Part shown: one piece after another, positions 3,643 to 17,605 of the stretch
Position numbering within the stretch: position 1 is the first letter of the stretch
Layout of the letters: each line of letters begins with the position of its first letter
The notes under the pieces: model-generated
What the model was told of the DNA's origin: nothing
The model's database searches: none
Seen by the model: the letters and a program-made list of their open reading frames with translations, nothing else
IMG/VR virus record: IMGVR_UViG_3300037460_000132
Location: 1-21,315 of that record
Length of the DNA: 21,315 bases
Strand: one strand, 5' to 3'
From: a virus
Program-made: the position numbers and the translations under genes

Positions 3643-4485
3643 TTAGGTAGTGTTCACAGGGAACGCAGCAGTGTCATCGTGCAGCATTTTTACCACGCCG
3701 ATGTCCTGAAGCAACTTGCTTCCCATGAAGGTTGTGCAACGCGCCCACGACTTATCGTTCTTGCGATCGTACCCAACTTCAGTACGAATGTTCTCGATGT
3801 CACAAGCGTGACCGATCGAGGCCTTGGCATGCATGAAGCATGTCGCCGATGCGGATCCAGTTCCAGGCAATCCAGCATCCACGATCCAGTTGACGCCGTA
3901 CCAGTTGAAGGCACGAGACTTGGAAACATTCTCGAACCCTTTCAGGTTTACGAAGTCGCTGGAGGTGAACTGTTGAAAGCCCATCAGCTGGCCCACGAAG
4001 GCTGGGGTCACGATGGCAAACGGCTCTTCATCGAGCGCGAAGTTATTCGCCAGGATGGTTCGAGCTGTCGACACCAGTGCGATGGTTGCCGCAGCGGCAC
4101 CACCCCAGGCAGTGGAAGCGGTTGTGAGTTCGGTGTAGATGTCATCATCGATCTTTCTGTTGATGACCTTCATCGAGGTCTCTTGCATGATCCGACGACC
4201 ATCACCCTGGGACGCATAGATGTTGAATCTGGTGCGCTCCGGAACATCGTGCCACTCTTGAAGTAACGCGGTGAACTGGTTGAGGTTATCGGGGCGAGTT
4301 GGAATGTCACCATTCACGCCACGAGTTGTTGCGGTGGCACCACCGGAGTCAGCGACCAGGAACGTAGCTTCGTTACCATTGATCTCAGTTTCCACTGTGG
4401 TGGTCCGACGAGAAAGACTTTGGCCCTTCTCAAAACCCATGACGACTTCCTGGCGAAACATTTCTTGGAAGGCTGTATCAGCCAT
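3643..4485 (-). CDS. Major capsid protein
   Basis: 280 residues. It resembles the phage capsid family Pfam Phage_capsid_2 (PF19821), an HK97-fold type. Supporting features are the Gln-rich amphipathic N-terminal helix (FQEMFRQEV), a middle region with INRKIDDDIYTEL, a P-domain-like stretch with AFVGQLMGFQQF, and the conserved-looking AFNWYGVNWIVDAGLPG followed by CFMHAKASIGHA. There is no protease domain or delta domain. The ATG at 4485 has a strong AGGAG Shine-Dalgarno 5 bases away. It lies downstream of a separate promoter/terminator region and directly before a decoration-like gene; scaffold and portal genes are upstream, as in T7-like gene order. Confidence 0.88.
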   Translation of the reverse strand: MADTAFQEMFRQEVVMGFEKGQSLSRRTTTVETEINGNEATFLVADSGGATATTRGVNGDIPTRPDNLNQFTALLQEWHDVPERTRFNIYASQGDGRRIMQETSMKVINRKIDDDIYTELTTASTAWGGAAAATIALVSTARTILANNFALDEEPFAIVTPAFVGQLMGFQQFTSSDFVNLKGFENVSKSRAFNWYGVNWIVDAGLPGTGSASATCFMHAKASIGHACDIENIRTEVGYDRKNDKSWARCTTFMGSKLLQDIGVVKMLHDDTAAFPVNTT

Positions 4486-4858: not shown

Positions 4859-5848
4859 CTACTGCGATCCCTCGAACTTATCAATCATGGTCTGAGCGTT
4901 CATGTAGGCCTGCTGCGCCGGCTTGTCCTTGTGCCATCCAACCGAGTCATCACGCATGCGGGTCTTCGATTCCTCGACCACCTTACGCGCATCGTTGAGT
5001 GTCGCTTCCTCGCCGCCCTTGATCGGATCCATCGGTGAGATCTGGCGGTCGACGTTGACCAACCAGGTCATGACCTCGGCGCTGTTCATCAACGCACGGC
5101 CATCAGGCATACGCGCCTGCTTGAATGAATCTCGAATTGCTTCGGGTAGCAGGTTGATCTGGTTGTTGGCTCGATTCATGTTGATCTGATACTCAGGCCC
5201 CCAGTTCTCCTTCGCCAGCTTGGTGAAGTCCTGGGCGTCCAGGTTGTCCTGGGTATGCATCTGCTCGACCACCTTGTCGGACTCACCCATGTAGGTGTTC
5301 ATCAATTCGCTCAGTGCTTCCTGGGAGATGTTGTGCTTGTGCGCCACCTCGGCCACTGGCCCCATCATCTCGAGATCTACCTCGGACAGCTCACGGTCGG
5401 CGCTGGTGAAGTCATACTCAGTAGCCTTGAGTGGGATGTCATTGGCGATCCGGAAGTCACTGACCTGCTCTTCGGTTGCATCATCGGGTAGGCCGGTTGA
5501 GACTTCGCCGGCTCGAATCTTGTCGTGTGCCTGGAACGCTGACTCCATGAACTTGTCCTGGTCGGTGTAACGCTCGAGGCGCTTACCCCAGTCTTCATTC
5601 TCGCCGGCCAGGTTTTTGCGCCAGATGTCACCTTTACCGGATCCACCATCACCGCCGTCACCATCACCATCGCCGCCACCGTCACCGCCACCGCCGTCAC
5701 CGTCACCATCACCACCACCGCCATCGCCACCATCGCCATCGCCGTCACCTCCACCATCGCCATCTCCACCACCACCATCACCGCCATCGTCGCCGGCAGG
5801 TGCTCTGTAAACGTAGCCACTGGACCACTTGTTGTTCATGAATTTCAC
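4859..5848 (-). CDS. Scaffold protein with N-terminal Gly-Asp tract
   Basis: 329 residues from a GTG start at 5848, chosen because AGGAG lies 8 bases upstream and the GTG overlaps the stop of the preceding gene (GTGA); the internal ATG at 5839 is too far from that site. Residues 19-69 are almost only Gly and Asp. Residues about 70-329 are acidic, helical and hydrophilic (EVAHKHNISQEALSELM, DARKVVEESKTRM), typical of phage scaffolding proteins. The position between portal and major capsid is that of T7 gene 9. The role is inferred from position and composition. The strongly acidic disordered N-terminus is unusual; it might bind cations or keep the scaffold soluble. Confidence 0.75.
   Translation of the reverse strand: MKFMNNKWSSGYVYRAPAGDDGGDGGGGDGDGGGDGDGDGGDGGGGDGDGDGGGGDGGGDGDGDGGDGGSGKGDIWRKNLAGENEDWGKRLERYTDQDKFMESAFQAHDKIRAGEVSTGLPDDATEEQVSDFRIANDIPLKATEYDFTSADRELSEVDLEMMGPVAEVAHKHNISQEALSELMNTYMGESDKVVEQMHTQDNLDAQDFTKLAKENWGPEYQINMNRANNQINLLPEAIRDSFKQARMPDGRALMNSAEVMTWLVNVDRQISPMDPIKGGEEATLNDARKVVEESKTRMRDDSVGWHKDKPAQQAYMNAQTMIDKFEGSQ
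5642..5794 (-). repeat. GGN-GAY triplet tract coding for Gly-Asp repeats
   Basis: About 51 consecutive codons are Gly or Asp, built from short units such as GGDGDGDGG. On the plus strand this shows as CCA, CCG, TCA and TCG triplets. Such tracts can expand or shrink by slippage, so length variation between related phages is likely. Confidence 0.85.
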
Positions 5849-8041: not shown

Positions 8042-8673
8042 TATGCTATTGCTCCCCGTTTAGGTTTAGCCTCGAAGGCGCTGGTCGCGGCCTGCCCTCT
8101 ACGAGTGGCCTTTTGTTTCTGAGCTGCGACATTCGAGGCTACCCTGGTGGATCCGTAGCCACCACCCTTGGCCTTCGCTCGGGCTGATGCAGTTTCGCTC
8201 TGCTCGGTGATGCCCTGGGTCTCGTACTCGATCTGCTGGACCTCGAAGATCTCCTTGCCGCTCTGCTTCGCCAGGCGTTCAGCTTTCTGCCTGGCATCGC
8301 CAGCGTAGGTGCGCTTCTCGTCGTTCTTGCCACGAGTGTAGGATCCTTGCCGCGTGGGCTTCTTGTAGTGGAACTCCCAGTTGCGAGGATCGTCGGCGCG
8401 GCTACCAGTGGAAGCGAGATGCTCCTTGAATGATTTGCGCTTGATCTTCTTCCCTTTGGCATCGAGGATGTTGCCACCCGCGACGACCTTCTTGCCGCCC
8501 CCGCCCTTGTAGTCGAAGCCTTCGGTTTTCTCAGCGATGGGTTTTGCTTTCGCCAGCGCCGGCGCGTACATCCCTGTGCCTGGCCTGGCTGCTTGATAGT
8601 TCTTGGAGCCTGGACGGCCCCTGGCGGGTGTCGCTCTTTTGTCGCGAGTTCGTCTGCTGTCACCTTTGGCCAT
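8041..8673 (-). CDS. Unknown highly basic protein (210 aa)
   Basis: No family recognised. The protein is strongly basic and mostly low complexity: Arg/Lys/Gly-rich N-terminus (GDSRRTRDKRATPARGRPG), a Gly-Lys segment near residue 58 (GGGGKKVVAGG), a more ordered charged helix around 125-150 (ARQKAERLAKQSGKEIFEV), and a C-terminal AAQKQKATRRGQAATSAF. The start at 8673 has a GAGGTAGAG Shine-Dalgarno. The charge suggests contact with DNA or RNA, or with packaged DNA in the virion. It lies between terminase and portal with two other small, disordered proteins. Confidence 0.68.
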   Translation of the reverse strand: MAKGDSRRTRDKRATPARGRPGSKNYQAARPGTGMYAPALAKAKPIAEKTEGFDYKGGGGKKVVAGGNILDAKGKKIKRKSFKEHLASTGSRADDPRNWEFHYKKPTRQGSYTRGKNDEKRTYAGDARQKAERLAKQSGKEIFEVQQIEYETQGITEQSETASARAKAKGGGYGSTRVASNVAAQKQKATRRGQAATSAFEAKPKRGAIA

Positions 8674-8679
8674 GAGACT

Positions 8680-8907
8680 CTACCTCAGTGACTTGGGTGC
8701 GCCACCGAAGCCATCGCCGTTGGCGTCATTGTCGGTGTCGATGAACTTGCCACCACCCGCGCCGTTGTCGTTGACCAGGCTGCGCTTGTTGCGCGATCCC
8801 TTGTTGGTTCCAAAGCCATTGAGCTGGCCCATGTCGTAGTCGTCGGAGGTGCCGTCTTTGATCTTGGAGCCTCCGGTGTTTTGCTTAGATGATCCGTAGT
8901 TTGGCAT
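8680..8907 (-). CDS. Unknown Gly/Asn/Asp-rich small protein (75 aa)
   Basis: 75 residues, no hydrophobic core visible, rich in Gly, Asn, Asp, Ser and Lys (for example KFIDTDNDANGDGFGGAPKS), hence probably disordered. The ATG overlaps the upstream acetyltransferase stop as TAATG and the stop lies 6 bases before the next ATG, so it belongs to the same translation unit. Lack of complexity makes family assignment impossible by eye. The frame is supported by gene packing rather than by homology. Confidence 0.6.
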   Translation of the reverse strand: MPNYGSSKQNTGGSKIKDGTSDDYDMGQLNGFGTNKGSRNKRSLVNDNGAGGGKFIDTDNDANGDGFGGAPKSLR

Positions 8908-11122: not shown

Positions 11123-11385
11123 GACTTTGCCCAGTTGTTCAACCAGGTGGCCAGGCCTCCCAGCATTGACGAGTTGTACCTGACCTTGTAGCCGACCAGG
11201 ATCTTGATGGTTTCCTCTGCCGCCTGGACGGTGGTCTCCAGCTGGTGGATCCTGATCGCGTCTTCATCCATGCACTTGCCGCGGTGCTTGGCGAGATCTG
11301 CGATGTAGTGGACCTTGTCCTCGGGCGGGATGTTCATCTTCATGATCTCATCGATGCCTTTGTCTTTCTCTGCTTCGGTGCTCAT
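11119..11385 (-). CDS. Unknown helical protein following terminase (88 aa)
   Basis: 88 mostly helical residues (MSTEAEKDKGIDEIMKMN, then KVHYIADLAKHRG and a heptad-like IHQLETTVQAAEETIKILV), ending in a more apolar SSMLGGLATWLNNW. It is probably an oligomeric helical protein. An excellent GGAGAAAGAT ribosome site precedes the ATG, and the start overlaps the terminase stop as ATGA. Its position directly after terL might suggest a packaging accessory role, but nothing in the sequence proves it. Confidence 0.7.
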   Translation of the reverse strand: MSTEAEKDKGIDEIMKMNIPPEDKVHYIADLAKHRGKCMDEDAIRIHQLETTVQAAEETIKILVGYKVRYNSSMLGGLATWLNNWAKS

Positions 11386-12872
11386 ATCTTTCTCCGGATT
11401 CGGCGCTTGGTTGCGCCCTGGGTGTTCACTCTCACGTTCTGATTCTGCGCGTACTTGTGGCTCCTGGCTGACCTGGGTGCCACGTTGATCTTCGGCGGGA
11501 TGCTCGGGCCGATGTCCTTCTTCGTCATCTTGGGGAACAGCTCAGTGAATCCCCAGATCAATGCGTCAGCTCGGTCGGGTGATCTCAGCCCGACATAGCC
11601 AGATTGTAGCATGGCCATCAGCTGCTCCTCGATCTCAGGGAAGTAGCCGATGTGGTGGATGGTTCCCTGGTCGTAGATGGCGCTGATCGGCTCGGCTCTG
11701 ACTTCCTTGCCGCGACTCGCTGTGACAGCTGTGAATGGCAGGTGTGGATCCTGGGCCTGGATGACGGCGCGTACCATGTCGCCACCGTAGTTGACCTCGC
11801 CAACGATGCGATCTGCCTGGTGCCTGTCGTATGCATCGGCGACGATCTTGCCCCAGACTTCGGGAGGTGCCTTGATCGATAGATCCTCGATCAGGTACCC
11901 ATGTCCGTCAGTACCCAGGGCAACGACAACGATCCCGACTTCGTCTGATCGCTTGTCCTCTGGTCCCTTGGTGCCTGACGGATCCACGGCAACAACAACG
12001 CGAAGCCACTGGGGCAGCTTCTGACCTTCCTGGCCGAGGACTCTGTTCTGCGACAGGGTCTCCTCGGTCCACAGGGAACCATCGGAATCGTCAGCCCATT
12101 GGCCGTAGAGGAATCGGCGCTTCGCTCCTTCGCCTAATGCCTCGAGCTGTGACAGATACTTCGGGTCCAGGTTGGCCGCGTTACCGTGCGGGTTCATTGT
12201 CAAATAGTTGTAGTCGAACTCGTTAGCCAGGTTGCGGTGCGGTGGCTCCGGATCCTTCTTCGAGATGAATCGAATGTAGGACCAGTGACGCTTCGACGGT
12301 GGATTGAGATCGTAGTAGGCCTTCAGCTTCAGGCCCTTGTGCTTGGCGATCAGGCGATCGTCCTTGTCGTACTCGTCCCAGGACGTCAGCTGGGCCAGCC
12401 TGGTGAGCGCAGTCTCGACCGACTTCCAGGGAATCTGTGAGCACTCGTTGAAGAACATCGATGCGTACTCGTGGCCCAGGACCTTCTCTACGCGCTTCTC
12501 CTCGTCCAGGCCACTCAGCCATACCTCTGAACCGTTCGGCAGCTTGTAGTACCAGTCAGTCTTGTTGAGCATGTCGTCCGCGGCTGGTAGCTCGGGGAAG
12601 CACAGCCTCACGACTTTCGGAATGGTGTCCAGGCCGATGGCTGTCTTGGCCACGTTGAATCGGTACCTGGCGATCAGGTGCCTGGAGTTGGGTACAGCGC
12701 ATGCCCTCATAAAGATGGCACGGATGATCAGGAATGTTTTGCCGCTGCGGGATCCACCACCGAGCGCACAGTGCGTGGCGTCAGCGGACAGGTTGTTCAT
12801 GGCCGACATCTGATCGGCAGTGAGCGTGTACTGGAACTTGGCTGGAGCGTCTGCCGCTGGGCTGAAACTCAT
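11382..12872 (-). CDS. terL: Terminase large subunit (packaging ATPase and nuclease)
   Basis: 496 residues, a full-length terminase motor that pumps DNA into the prohead and cuts concatemers. ATPase part: Walker A GGGSRSGKT (38-46), Walker B-like MFFNECSQ (139-146) where Asn stands in the usual Asp position before the catalytic Glu143, and a coupling motif with YYDLNPPSKRHW (186-197). Nuclease part (RNase H-like, Terminase_6C type): D297 in VVAVDPSG, E359 in GEVNYGGD, and D433/D436 in SPDRADALIW. The C-terminus is basic. The start at 12872 lies 7 bases after the small-subunit stop with a modest AGGTAG ribosome site. Confidence 0.94.
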   Translation of the reverse strand: MSFSPAADAPAKFQYTLTADQMSAMNNLSADATHCALGGGSRSGKTFLIIRAIFMRACAVPNSRHLIARYRFNVAKTAIGLDTIPKVVRLCFPELPAADDMLNKTDWYYKLPNGSEVWLSGLDEEKRVEKVLGHEYASMFFNECSQIPWKSVETALTRLAQLTSWDEYDKDDRLIAKHKGLKLKAYYDLNPPSKRHWSYIRFISKKDPEPPHRNLANEFDYNYLTMNPHGNAANLDPKYLSQLEALGEGAKRRFLYGQWADDSDGSLWTEETLSQNRVLGQEGQKLPQWLRVVVAVDPSGTKGPEDKRSDEVGIVVVALGTDGHGYLIEDLSIKAPPEVWGKIVADAYDRHQADRIVGEVNYGGDMVRAVIQAQDPHLPFTAVTASRGKEVRAEPISAIYDQGTIHHIGYFPEIEEQLMAMLQSGYVGLRSPDRADALIWGFTELFPKMTKKDIGPSIPPKINVAPRSARSHKYAQNQNVRVNTQGATKRRIRRKI

Positions 12873-12879
12873 GGGCTAC

Positions 12880-13491
12880 CTACAAGTTGGCATCCTGGGC
12901 GCAGTATTGTTGCACAACGATCACACCTGTTCCAGCCTTCTGGTGCTCGGAGTAGGCGTTGTAAAACTTCATGATCATGTCCAGGTATTTGCCCTTGTCC
13001 TTGCCGTACTTGATCTCGGTCTCGTACCTGGTGCTGGTGACATCGCCCTCTTCGTTGGTGCTCTCGGTCTCGAACTGCTTGAACTCGTGGACCATCTTCC
13101 TGGCGATCGGTGGCATCTCATGGATCGGTAACACGCGGCCATCGTCATCGAACATATCCTTGGGATCGAACAGCGCCAGGCCACCCACTTCCTGGAGTGT
13201 CTCCTCGAAGGTGACCATCAGGTGCTCGTGGCCATGGATGCGTAGCTCCTTCACTCGGGCTATGACGTCAACCTTTTTCAACAAGCGCCACCCCAGGGTA
13301 CCAGCTGTCGGCCTGGGGATCGGCCTGGCCTTTGTGCCGTATGCTACCTGGTAGGCTTCAGTCGCGTTCTGGGTTATGACATAGTGCTGCGCGAACTTCT
13401 CGTGCTTGAGATTCTCGGCGCGTTCAGCACGTTGAAGCTGCGCTCTCTTCTTGGCTGCAGGCGTGATTGCTTTCTTCTTAGCCGCCGCCAT
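12880..13491 (-). CDS. terS: Terminase small subunit
   Basis: 203 residues. It recognises the packaging site and loads the large subunit. The region from about residue 32 (KFAQHYVITQNATEAYQVAYGTK, then AGTLGWRLLKKVDVIARVKEL) matches the Terminase_2 family (PF03592) helix-turn-helix, preceded by a Lys/Ala-rich tail. A central segment (FEETLQEVGGLALFDPKDMFDDDGRVLPI) and ARKMVHEFKQFE also fit that family. C-terminal KDKGKYLDMIMKFYNAY is a typical family ending. GGTGGAGA precedes the ATG. It directly precedes terL. Confidence 0.88.
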   Translation of the reverse strand: MAAAKKKAITPAAKKRAQLQRAERAENLKHEKFAQHYVITQNATEAYQVAYGTKARPIPRPTAGTLGWRLLKKVDVIARVKELRIHGHEHLMVTFEETLQEVGGLALFDPKDMFDDDGRVLPIHEMPPIARKMVHEFKQFETESTNEEGDVTSTRYETEIKYGKDKGKYLDMIMKFYNAYSEHQKAGTGVIVVQQYCAQDANL

Positions 13492-13774: not shown

Positions 13775-14006
13775 ACCCATTGACTCCCAGCTCCTGGCAC
13801 ATTTCGATGTAGCACTCGTCGCAGTAGTCATCACCCAGGATCAGGACGCCATCAGGTGGTACCACATCGCTGAACGTCTTCTCGCAGGTCGAGCAGCGAT
13901 CGATGACTGCCAGGCCTGGTGGCATTCCATCCACGCGCAAAGGACCGGCCTCAACGAACTGCTCTCCGTCGAAGTCCATTTTGTGAAAGGTGATTGATCT
14001 ACTCAT
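13767..14006 (-). CDS. Small protein with two Cys pairs (79 aa)
   Basis: 79 residues. The start ATG at 14006 overlaps the previous stop by 8 bases; AAGG lies 9 bases upstream. The C-terminal half carries CSTC and YCDEC about 23 residues apart, consistent with a zinc ribbon (CSTCEKTFSD, GDDYCDECYIEM). The N-terminal half is beta-rich (FDGEQFVEAGPLRVDG). No family recognised. The longer reading to 14093 is rejected because it lies inside the neighbour and is Ser/Arg-rich. Confidence 0.66.
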   Translation of the reverse strand: MSRSITFHKMDFDGEQFVEAGPLRVDGMPPGLAVIDRCSTCEKTFSDVVPPDGVLILGDDYCDECYIEMCQELGVNGYD

Positions 14007-14292
14007 TGAACTCGGCCTTGAGGATTGAATAGTCCCTGGGTGAAATGATGCACATGTTCGGCAGCATGTAGACAACGCTCTCCTGGTTGACAAATGTGTT
14101 GCAGGGATTCCAGGTCAGAACTGTCTCCCACCATTTCAGGATCGGTGGCGACAGATATTCATCAATGATGATGCGAGTCATCACGGTACCGAAGCAGGCC
14201 ATGTGGTGAGCTGCCTGCTTCTGGATCCTGTCGAGTTTCTTTGCGGCCTCGAGGATCGTGGCCCTGGTACAGGTCGCCGTCGAGTTATCCAT
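13999..14292 (-). CDS. Unknown 97-residue protein
   Basis: 97 residues from ATG at 14292 with GGGGAA 6 bases upstream; it overlaps the collar-like gene stop by 8 bases. It has a helical start (ATILEAAKKLDRIQKQAAHHM), then beta-like segments (TRIIIDEYL, SVVYMLPNMCIIS) and ends LKAEFNE. Three of its four cysteines are scattered and no zinc motif is evident. No family recognised. It belongs to the same overlapped series. Confidence 0.66.
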   Translation of the reverse strand: MDNSTATCTRATILEAAKKLDRIQKQAAHHMACFGTVMTRIIIDEYLSPPILKWWETVLTWNPCNTFVNQESVVYMLPNMCIISPRDYSILKAEFNE

Positions 14293-14806
14293 ACTTGTTC
14301 CCCAGGACTTTGTACAGGTGCGGGAACTCGATCGCTGACAGCTCACGGCCATCGCACGGAATGCACCCGAGAGCTGGTCCGGTTGCGATGTGGATCTCGC
14401 CAGTCTTCTGGTCGATCAAGTGCTCCATCCGGACAGATTCATCCAGCCACACGCCAGTGATGTCATGGCCCTGGATCCTGGCCAAGACACCCTCATCGAT
14501 TTTGCGGTTGATGGCGGCACCGGCCTGGTCCGCGTACTGAGCACGGATCGAAGTCTGGTATCGATCGGCCCAGTCATCACGGATTTCATTCTGCTGCGCC
14601 CACTCCTCGACCGCGGACATCTCACGCTCGGCTCCCATGTTGAGAGGCTGCGGCCTGGTGGCGTAGTGTCCTCGAAGATCAGGCACACGGAACTTGACGC
14701 GCTGGCCAGGCACCACGACCTTCATGATGTTCTCGGCCTTCACGATTGCTGGGATCGCCAGCACGGCTGCTGAGTTCTTCAGGAATTGTCGCCTGGTTAG
14801 AATCAT
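14285..14806 (-). CDS. Tat-signal protein with inverted (circularly permuted) tail-collar-like halves
   Basis: 173 residues. Residues 1-28 form a twin-arginine signal-like N-terminus: TRRQFLKNSA, an apolar AAVLAIPAIV stretch, then KAE. Residues 33-51 contain FRVPDLRGHYATRP, which matches the second half of phage tail-collar domains (FrLPDLRGr). Residues 145-173 are GPALGCIPCDGRELSAIEF followed by PHLYKVLGNKYG, which match the first half (pcDGr.ls...yp.Ly..lG..YG). Between them is a helical segment (60-130). So the two halves occur in the opposite order to the usual domain. Start at 14806 has GGAG and overlaps the previous stop (ATGA). Twin-Arg phage proteins near structural genes are known; the role is unclear. 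Confidence 0.72.
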   Translation of the reverse strand: MILTRRQFLKNSAAVLAIPAIVKAENIMKVVVPGQRVKFRVPDLRGHYATRPQPLNMGAEREMSAVEEWAQQNEIRDDWADRYQTSIRAQYADQAGAAINRKIDEGVLARIQGHDITGVWLDESVRMEHLIDQKTGEIHIATGPALGCIPCDGRELSAIEFPHLYKVLGNKYG

Positions 14807-16619: not shown

Positions 16620-16782
16620 GAGGGATCTTCATGTCGGTGATGTCGTCCTTGTACTTCTGCAGCTCCTCGCCCTGCAGCTTGATGTGCTGGACAGTTTGCG
16701 TGACGATCTCGCGGTGTCGTGCTGACAGTGATCGGTCATTCAGCATGCGGTTAAGCAGCTTGATGATATATTCGCTGTTCAT
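16603..16782 (-). CDS. Small helical protein (59 aa)
   Basis: 59 residues, just under usual ORF cut-offs. It starts at ATG 16782, overlapping the nuclease gene stop as ATGA, with AAGGAG 12 bases upstream (rather far). It is an all-helical charged protein (MNSEYIIKLLNRMLNDRS, then EIVTQTVQHIKLQGEELQKY). No family recognised. Gene packing on both sides supports it. Confidence 0.64.
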   Translation of the reverse strand: MNSEYIIKLLNRMLNDRSLSARHREIVTQTVQHIKLQGEELQKYKDDITDMKIPRENQS

Positions 16783-17084
16783 ATTTTTATCAACTCCTTC
16801 TCGATTAGTTTCTGGCGGGTGCGCCTGGATCCCTGGTAGTACATCAGCAGGAGATCGTCCAGGGTGTACACGATGTGGCCGTTGGGCTTGTACCTGGTGC
16901 GGCCATCGATCTCGTCATGGCATGCACTGCACCCGTAGGCAATTTCTGTATCAGGCCACTTGATCGACAGGCCAGATCCGATTGGCTCATGGCAGGCCAC
17001 GGTGGTCTCGTCACGGCGATTGCAGACGCCTGGGATCCTGATCAGGCACTGCTCACCCTTGGCGCTGTCGGTAATCTTGCTCAT
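16779..17084 (-). CDS. YbcO-like nuclease (DUF1364)
   Basis: 101 residues from the ATG at 17084, which overlaps the upstream stop as ATGA. It matches E. coli prophage YbcO and PF07102: SAKGEQCLIRIPGVCNRRDETTVACHE (residues about 7-33), and IAYGCSACHDEIDGRTR near 49-65. Two Cys pairs and the conserved His/Asp-Glu around CSACHDEID are the zinc and catalytic site of this HNH-type nuclease family. The C-terminus is helical (TRQKLIEKELIKI). The frame up to 17177 is an extension into the neighbour and is rejected. Such nucleases lie in nin-type regions of lambdoid phages. Confidence 0.85.
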   Translation of the reverse strand: MSKITDSAKGEQCLIRIPGVCNRRDETTVACHEPIGSGLSIKWPDTEIAYGCSACHDEIDGRTRYKPNGHIVYTLDDLLLMYYQGSRRTRQKLIEKELIKI

Positions 17085-17605
17085 GTAATCACCCAGCCTT
17101 TCCAGATTGAGGCATACGGCTTGCCGGTTCTTTGGTTGATCCCATGCAGGCTTCGCAGCCCCGAGGTGGCTCGGCAACGATTCTCCATCCGACTCCAGTT
17201 CAGGTCGAAGGCACGGAACAGGTCCTGGTTGTCTCGGACCAGCTGGGTCAGGTTCATCCCAGCGATGGTTTTACCCAGGGATTTGTTCGTGAATGACCAG
17301 TACTTTGCTGCCCAGTTATTCACGCCTCGCTTGCAGATCGGTGACTTCATCTCGTGGCCGAATCGCTCCTTGCCCAGGCGCTTGTTGGTTTCGGCAACCT
17401 CGTTGGGATCTCTCTTCATGCGGTTGATCCGACACTGCTCTGGATCCCTGGGTGGCAGCACCACATTCCCAGCGGCATACGTGGCAAGCAGGGCCTTCGA
17501 GATCTTCTTCCCGTACCCTGGTGGGTTCGCCTTCCTGGTACCGCTGGCCCACTTCTTTTTCAAGTTCTCACTGATCTTTCGTTTGGTTTCCTCTGAGTGT
17601 TTCAT
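17081..17605 (-). CDS. NUMOD3-type DNA-binding protein, homing-endonuclease remnant or relative
   Basis: 174 residues. The N-terminus (HSEETKRKISENLKKKW) is a NUMOD3 motif (hseETkrKiSealk), known from homing endonucleases. A second domain (NNWAAKYWSFTNKSLGKTI, then MNLTQLVRDNQDLF, and a final KPYASIWKGWVI) matches the AK-x-W ... NL-x-x-fvr-x-N motif also linked to such nucleases. I see no GIY-YIG or HNH catalytic core, so it may be a DNA-binding regulator or a decayed nuclease. Its stop overlaps the YbcO-like gene (ATGA). No intron is visible next to it. Confidence 0.72.
   Translation of the reverse strand: MKHSEETKRKISENLKKKWASGTRKANPPGYGKKISKALLATYAAGNVVLPPRDPEQCRINRMKRDPNEVAETNKRLGKERFGHEMKSPICKRGVNNWAAKYWSFTNKSLGKTIAGMNLTQLVRDNQDLFRAFDLNWSRMENRCRATSGLRSLHGINQRTGKPYASIWKGWVIT

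Follow-up and report, generated by a model that had tools for sequence, protein, structure and literature searches.

A small phage protein with reversed tail-collar halves behind a Tat-type leader

Introduction

What is a viral protein of 173 residues that carries both halves of a phage tail-collar domain in reversed order, behind a twin-arginine-type leader and upstream of terminase genes? Such a protein is encoded in the 21,315-nucleotide stretch of viral DNA that we analysed (the window). The answer developed here, to which we give about an even chance, is that this small phage protein is probably directed to Tat and is built around a circularly permuted collar domain.

Results

The gene and its surroundings

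The open reading frame (ORF), its coordinates and the peptides quoted in an earlier note on this DNA were borne out with an offset of one residue, FRVPDLRGHYATRP lying at residues 39-52 and PCDGRELSAIEF at residues 150-161 of the protein; LYKVLGNKYG occupies residues 164-173 and TRRQFLKNSA residues 4-13. The gene also lies where that note had placed it, upstream of small genes and terminase, with the small subunit (TerS) ~0.8 kb and the large subunit (TerL) ~1.4 kb away and small ORFs between. The features are as follows.

14285..14806, minus strand: gene for the 173-residue protein, Tat-type leader plus putative permuted collar (ORF; homologue in L074/L075)
14708..14806, minus strand: leader cassette, Tat-type, residues 1-33, MILTRRQFLKNSAAVLAIPAIVKAENIMKVVVP (common to 44 distinct viral proteins)
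14654..14707, minus strand: collar second half, residues 34-51, GQRVKFRVPDLRGHYATR (adds 20-27 bits when set behind the C-terminal half)
14381..14653, minus strand: fast-evolving linker, residues 52-142 (39% identity; in L074, predicted as a long helix)
14471..14569, minus strand: stretch aligning to a major-capsid-like segment, residues 80-112 (the same stretch of L074 matches its own major capsid protein; weak in the window copy)
14288..14380, minus strand: collar first half, residues 143-173, stopping at the KYG loop position (Pfam Collar 14-40 of 57, E 3.5e-7)
13999..14292, minus strand: next gene, its start overlapping the collar-gene stop (ATGGATAA; from the sequence)
12880..13491, minus strand: terminase small subunit, context (phrog_51, E 1.3e-20)
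11382..12872, minus strand: terminase large subunit, context (phrog_979, E 2.2e-73)
3643..4485, minus strand: major capsid protein (MCP), of the family of the MCP matched by the L074 linker (PF19821, E 5.8e-23; phrog_3437, E 5.3e-51)

The stop/start overlap ATGGATAA lies at 14285-14292. The genes downstream of the collar gene begin MDNSTATC, MDNVIPF and MDKEEHK in three viruses (the window and the L073 and L074 homologues), and their dissimilarity suggests module exchange at the collar-gene junction. Elsewhere in the window, an HNH endonuclease adjoins a homing-endonuclease-like ORF at 16779-17605, and a scaffold-like ORF (4859-5848) beside the capsid gene has, close to the N-terminus, a long Gly/Asp repeat.

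The collar halves are reversed and complementary

The second half of the collar had been proposed to lie near the N-terminus and the first half at the very C-terminus, and profile searches agree. The Pfam Collar profile (PF07484) aligns with residues 147-173 over its positions 14-40 of 57 (E 3.5e-7); in its native order the protein scores 30.5 bits on the first half only, thus passing the curated cut-off of 24 bits. The N-terminal stretch GQRVKFRVPDLRGHY, which alone scores nothing in Pfam, corresponds to the missing end of this profile. Placed after the C-terminal stretch, it carries the match on to position 55 and lifts the Pfam score from 27.0 bits to 46.8 bits (48.7 bits with a GDG spacer, 43.1 bits with another join), while control fusions, comprising two scrambled second halves, a stop readthrough and an overlapping frame, give 26.5-28.6 bits. 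Recovery of a native downstream second half through frameshift or readthrough was rejected, as the readthrough scores 27.2 bits and the other frame 28.6 bits versus 27.0 bits.

A stricter null was provided by a custom collar HMM built from 30 canonical collars of viral contigs. With this model the first half alone scores 27.3 bits and, with the protein's own GQRVKFRVPDLRGHYATRPQ appended, 53.9 bits. This peptide is the top scorer among all of the protein's own 20-mers, and its gain to 53.9 bits was equalled by none of 20,000 random 20-mers and none of 5,000 shuffles. The homologue in L074 likewise rises from 31.6 bits for the half alone to 60.2 bits in restored order, so that the comparison set beforehand, swapped against native order, comes out far better for the swapped order in both proteins (27 to 54 bits and 32 to 60 bits). 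In an unbiased HMM search of 6,849 ORFs, L074 matched model positions 44-56 near its N-terminus (E 0.031) and 9-40 at its C-terminus (E 2.7e-6), halves that are complementary and without overlap. The reversed order is not due to chance. No continuous PF07484 domain in native order is present, and because the halves are reversed and ~95 residues apart, we file the protein as a permuted relative of PF07484 and not as an ordinary member.

A third collar-bearing locus with the same leader cassette, L063, seems from its sequence to hold a second permutation with a different cut point. Its collar (model positions 11-55) directly follows the leader, and a peptide resembling strand 1, ILPGQIQYFAGEM, stands at the end; the gain of 8.6 bits from this peptide is small, and none of 20,000 random 13-mers did as well. 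The L063 leader is split by a frameshift, which we left uncorrected.

The halves are the best-conserved parts

Among 44 loci of viruses with a related TerL, compared for the collar-gene slot, two contigs with an identical protein (L074 and L075) hold a 184-residue homologue at 8337-8891 that is 55% identical to the window protein. It occupies the same slot upstream of TerS and TerL, has the same order of halves and ends in the same ...GNKYG-stop. L073 holds a C-terminal part with the ending of the window and L074 proteins; L076 has the leader in this slot in front of another body, and in L078-L080 this gene is absent from the slot. The 56-kb contig of L075 also bears a canonical collar within a 1205-residue ORF, which makes the permuted mini-protein an extra copy. 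A homologue, beyond the collar half, was not found among INPHARED phages, nor was a homologue of the collar protein found in 84,980 bacterial and archaeal genomes; the middle region, as sole query, returned no relative.

Between the window and L074 proteins, identity is 88% in the second half, 85% in the first half and 39% between them, with 38 of the 44 half residues identical, a result equalled by 2 of 138 circular mask shifts (counting the unshifted one). The pN/pS values follow the same pattern: the second and first halves have 0.09/0.47 and 0.14/0.40, the leader 0.24/0.54 and the linker middle 0.46/0.54. Overall, dS is ~0.83 and dN 0.38, with a bootstrap dN/dS of 0.28-0.64 for this one sequence pair. 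The contrast of 85-88% in the halves with 39% between them indicates, for this one pair of sequences, that the permuted pair and not the linker is retained by selection. The earlier note had offered circular permutation or completion between chains as its explanation; co-conservation of exactly complementary halves favours that proposal, and neither alternative is singled out.

Structure prediction and the linker

AlphaFold2 (AF2) on the window protein as a single sequence gave a pLDDT of 37. A second run took the L074 homologue in its mature form, with an alignment to which unaltered collar fragments had been added in register, and gave a pLDDT of 70 and a pTM of 0.37; the long helix was confident and both collar parts moderate. 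The linker is predicted as this helix, at residues 41-92 of the mature model (52 residues, high pLDDT). The Foldseek (PDB, BFVD) and VIA-align lists for the L074 model do not include gp12, an absence that does not show the folds to be different. In sequence, short tail fibres (9cuy and T4 gp12 1ocy) come closest among solved structures.

The L074 linker matches its own virus's MCP (E 2.2e-4 among 6,849 ORFs, the next unrelated ORF having E 2.6), a likeness that shuffles of this linker do not reproduce and that is weak in the linker of the window copy. Given the long helix predicted there, part of the MCP likeness could reflect helix composition. TerL-like and portal-like linker pieces in the window family were suggestive (P 6.5e-4 and 0.053) and not significant among 6,849 ORFs, and we make no claim for them.

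The leader is a shared viral cassette

The N-terminus had been described as a twin-arginine signal, and its sequence supports this: the twin-arginine motif, hydrophobic region and cleavage site of a Tat substrate are all present. We can add that the leader is a cassette shared among viruses, and that virion-protein pieces occur in other proteins headed by it. The consensus M.RR.FL...APAIVKAE.LMKI.VP stands at the start of no fewer than 44 different small viral proteins, whose bodies are for the most part unrelated (21 loci in the first scan and 44 in the next; 44 distinct proteins aligned). Of 41 cassettes retrieved with an RR-free pattern, 40 contain the twin arginine. Pfam TAT_signal (PF10518) matches nine of the 44 proteins (best E 3e-5); the window protein, at E 0.038, falls below the family cut-off. 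Conservation extends past the presumed cleavage site, in the motif E-[NS]-[LI]-M-K-[IL]-x-V-P.

Searches of INPHARED for the cassette gave only matches at E 4-6, where the BLAST low-complexity filter may mask it, and 84,980 bacterial and archaeal genomes yielded three loci, all on contigs of metagenome-assembled genomes (MAGs), one adjoining a Walker-A-bearing ORF that is terminase-like by eye. Ten large ORFs neighbouring cassette genes included three terminases, along with replication proteins and an integrase, which indicates that cassette genes do not generally lie among tail genes. In L003, L012, L014 and L066, two or three cassette proteins with different bodies are clustered.

Most cassette bodies match no family, and nearly all matches obtained are pieces of virion proteins. 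With Pfam at E 0.01, and TAT_signal set aside, the 44 proteins gave Collar (3), PhiKZ major capsid (2), DUF7483 (2) and Laminin_G_3 (1); the remaining match, TiaS_FLD at E 0.007, is at chance level. The named PHROG families matched are all head, tail or portal. Outside these matches, no collar is recognisable in the cassette proteins. For L002 and L003, the body matches the C-terminal region of the MCP of the same virus (E 8e-10 and 1e-7, respectively), and that of L076 holds a suggestive portal-like piece (Pfam E 0.01).

The cassette proteins of L065 and L069 share the same truncated start of a DUF7483-like tail-fibre domain (..GNGSAQTIHHSIGYAPQFIMIK / ..GTGRTQTIEHSIGWEPSFIMIK). Jumbo phages that have the cassette also encode small leaderless ORFs (L138 G009:C1:267336-267674 and L137 G006:C1:26414-26872) that match internal pieces of a major head protein (E 1.8e-17 and 1.8e-11).

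Discussion

Judged from its sequence, the protein is best read as a mini-fibre protein directed to the envelope and bearing a circularly permuted collar, possibly complemented between chains. Its layout would be the leader, a strand and loop with PDLRG (the second half), a fast-evolving linker that is predicted to be mostly one long helix and in the relative appears partly capsid-like, and then the first half, which would end exactly at the loop where a canonical domain continues into the second half. The leader most likely routes the protein to the envelope, through Tat export or as an envelope anchor. The two halves probably meet at the KYG/GQR loop, within one chain or between oligomer neighbours, and so form a collar-like tip. 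The gene itself may have arisen from pieces of structural genes recombined behind a mobile leader. Counting against a permuted collar are the small number of homologues, one full and one partial, the modelling scores (pLDDT 70, pTM 0.37), the lack of a gp12-like entry in the Foldseek and VIA-align lists, the small gain and frameshifted leader of L063, and the missing collar in the other cassette proteins.

The same halves could be used differently. If they stood at opposite ends of the helix, each could complete a neighbour's collar, giving either a trimer or a fibre of chains joined head to tail. In gp12-type fibres the collar domains form trimers, as in the PDB relatives 1ocy and 5iv5, and the mature homologue's linker is predicted as a single 52-residue helix; however, the placement of helix relative to collar parts is uncertain (pTM 0.37) and ~28 further residues could return the chain, and we regard such complementation as distinctly unlikely. 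Another explanation dispenses with the collar fold: the body would be shuffled fragments of fibre, capsid and perhaps portal or terminase behind a functional leader. The family matches of the 44 cassette bodies, almost solely partial virion domains, fit this, as do the matches of the L074 linker and the L002 and L003 bodies to their own MCPs and the portal-like piece of L076. Yet the collar pieces are exactly complementary, sit at the two ends and are the best-conserved parts, whereas the TerL-like and portal-like matches are individually weak, and a leader as the sole working part with filler bodies would leave the top conservation of the halves unexplained. We therefore hold shuffled fragments to be possible but unlikely. 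That the gene is functionless, decaying debris of recombination, or arose from misassembly, is highly improbable: although the middle part evolves almost without constraint, the open frame is retained at dS ~0.8 with an overall dN/dS of 0.28-0.64 and occurs on several independent contigs, so that conservation already largely refutes it.

A circularly permuted collar would differ in several respects from known systems. All recognisable parts of the PF07484 collar of the T4 gp12 short tail fibre (1ocy, 5iv5) are present (local model positions 9-40 and 44-56); unlike there, the order is reversed with ~95 residues between the halves, no fibre shaft is present, a Tat-type leader stands in front and the gene lies away from tail genes. 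The leader resembles those of Tat substrates of Proteobacteria in its Z-R-R-x-F-L motif, hydrophobic stretch and A-x-A-like end, but differs in the block conserved past the predicted cleavage site and in the small, mostly unrelated mature bodies. Small canonical phage collar proteins such as QTH80458.1 (Pseudomonas phage pPa_SNUABM_DT01) are likewise small and combine a collar with a short N-terminal segment; we rejected QTH80458.1 as a counterpart on account of its canonical collar order and lack of a leader. In the open PMC literature we found no circular permutation of a phage collar domain and no account of one Tat leader heading numerous small phage proteins composed of parts of virion proteins.

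As to function, one may speculate that the protein imitates a receptor-binding fibre tip at the cell envelope, for instance in superinfection exclusion. Our confidence in receptor masking or exclusion is low because this role fits the collar, LamG and fibre pieces but not the capsid pieces. It is doubtful, and in our judgement quite unlikely, that the shared, virus-specific Tat leader sends many small chimeric proteins of rearranged virion pieces to the envelope as mimics or decoys that, for example, exclude competing phages. If these proteins are exported, they would tie recombination among structural genes to what the infected cell's envelope does, and offer a test set for superinfection exclusion. 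Collar permutants would also constitute a natural test of the contacts required for folding and trimerisation of the domain.
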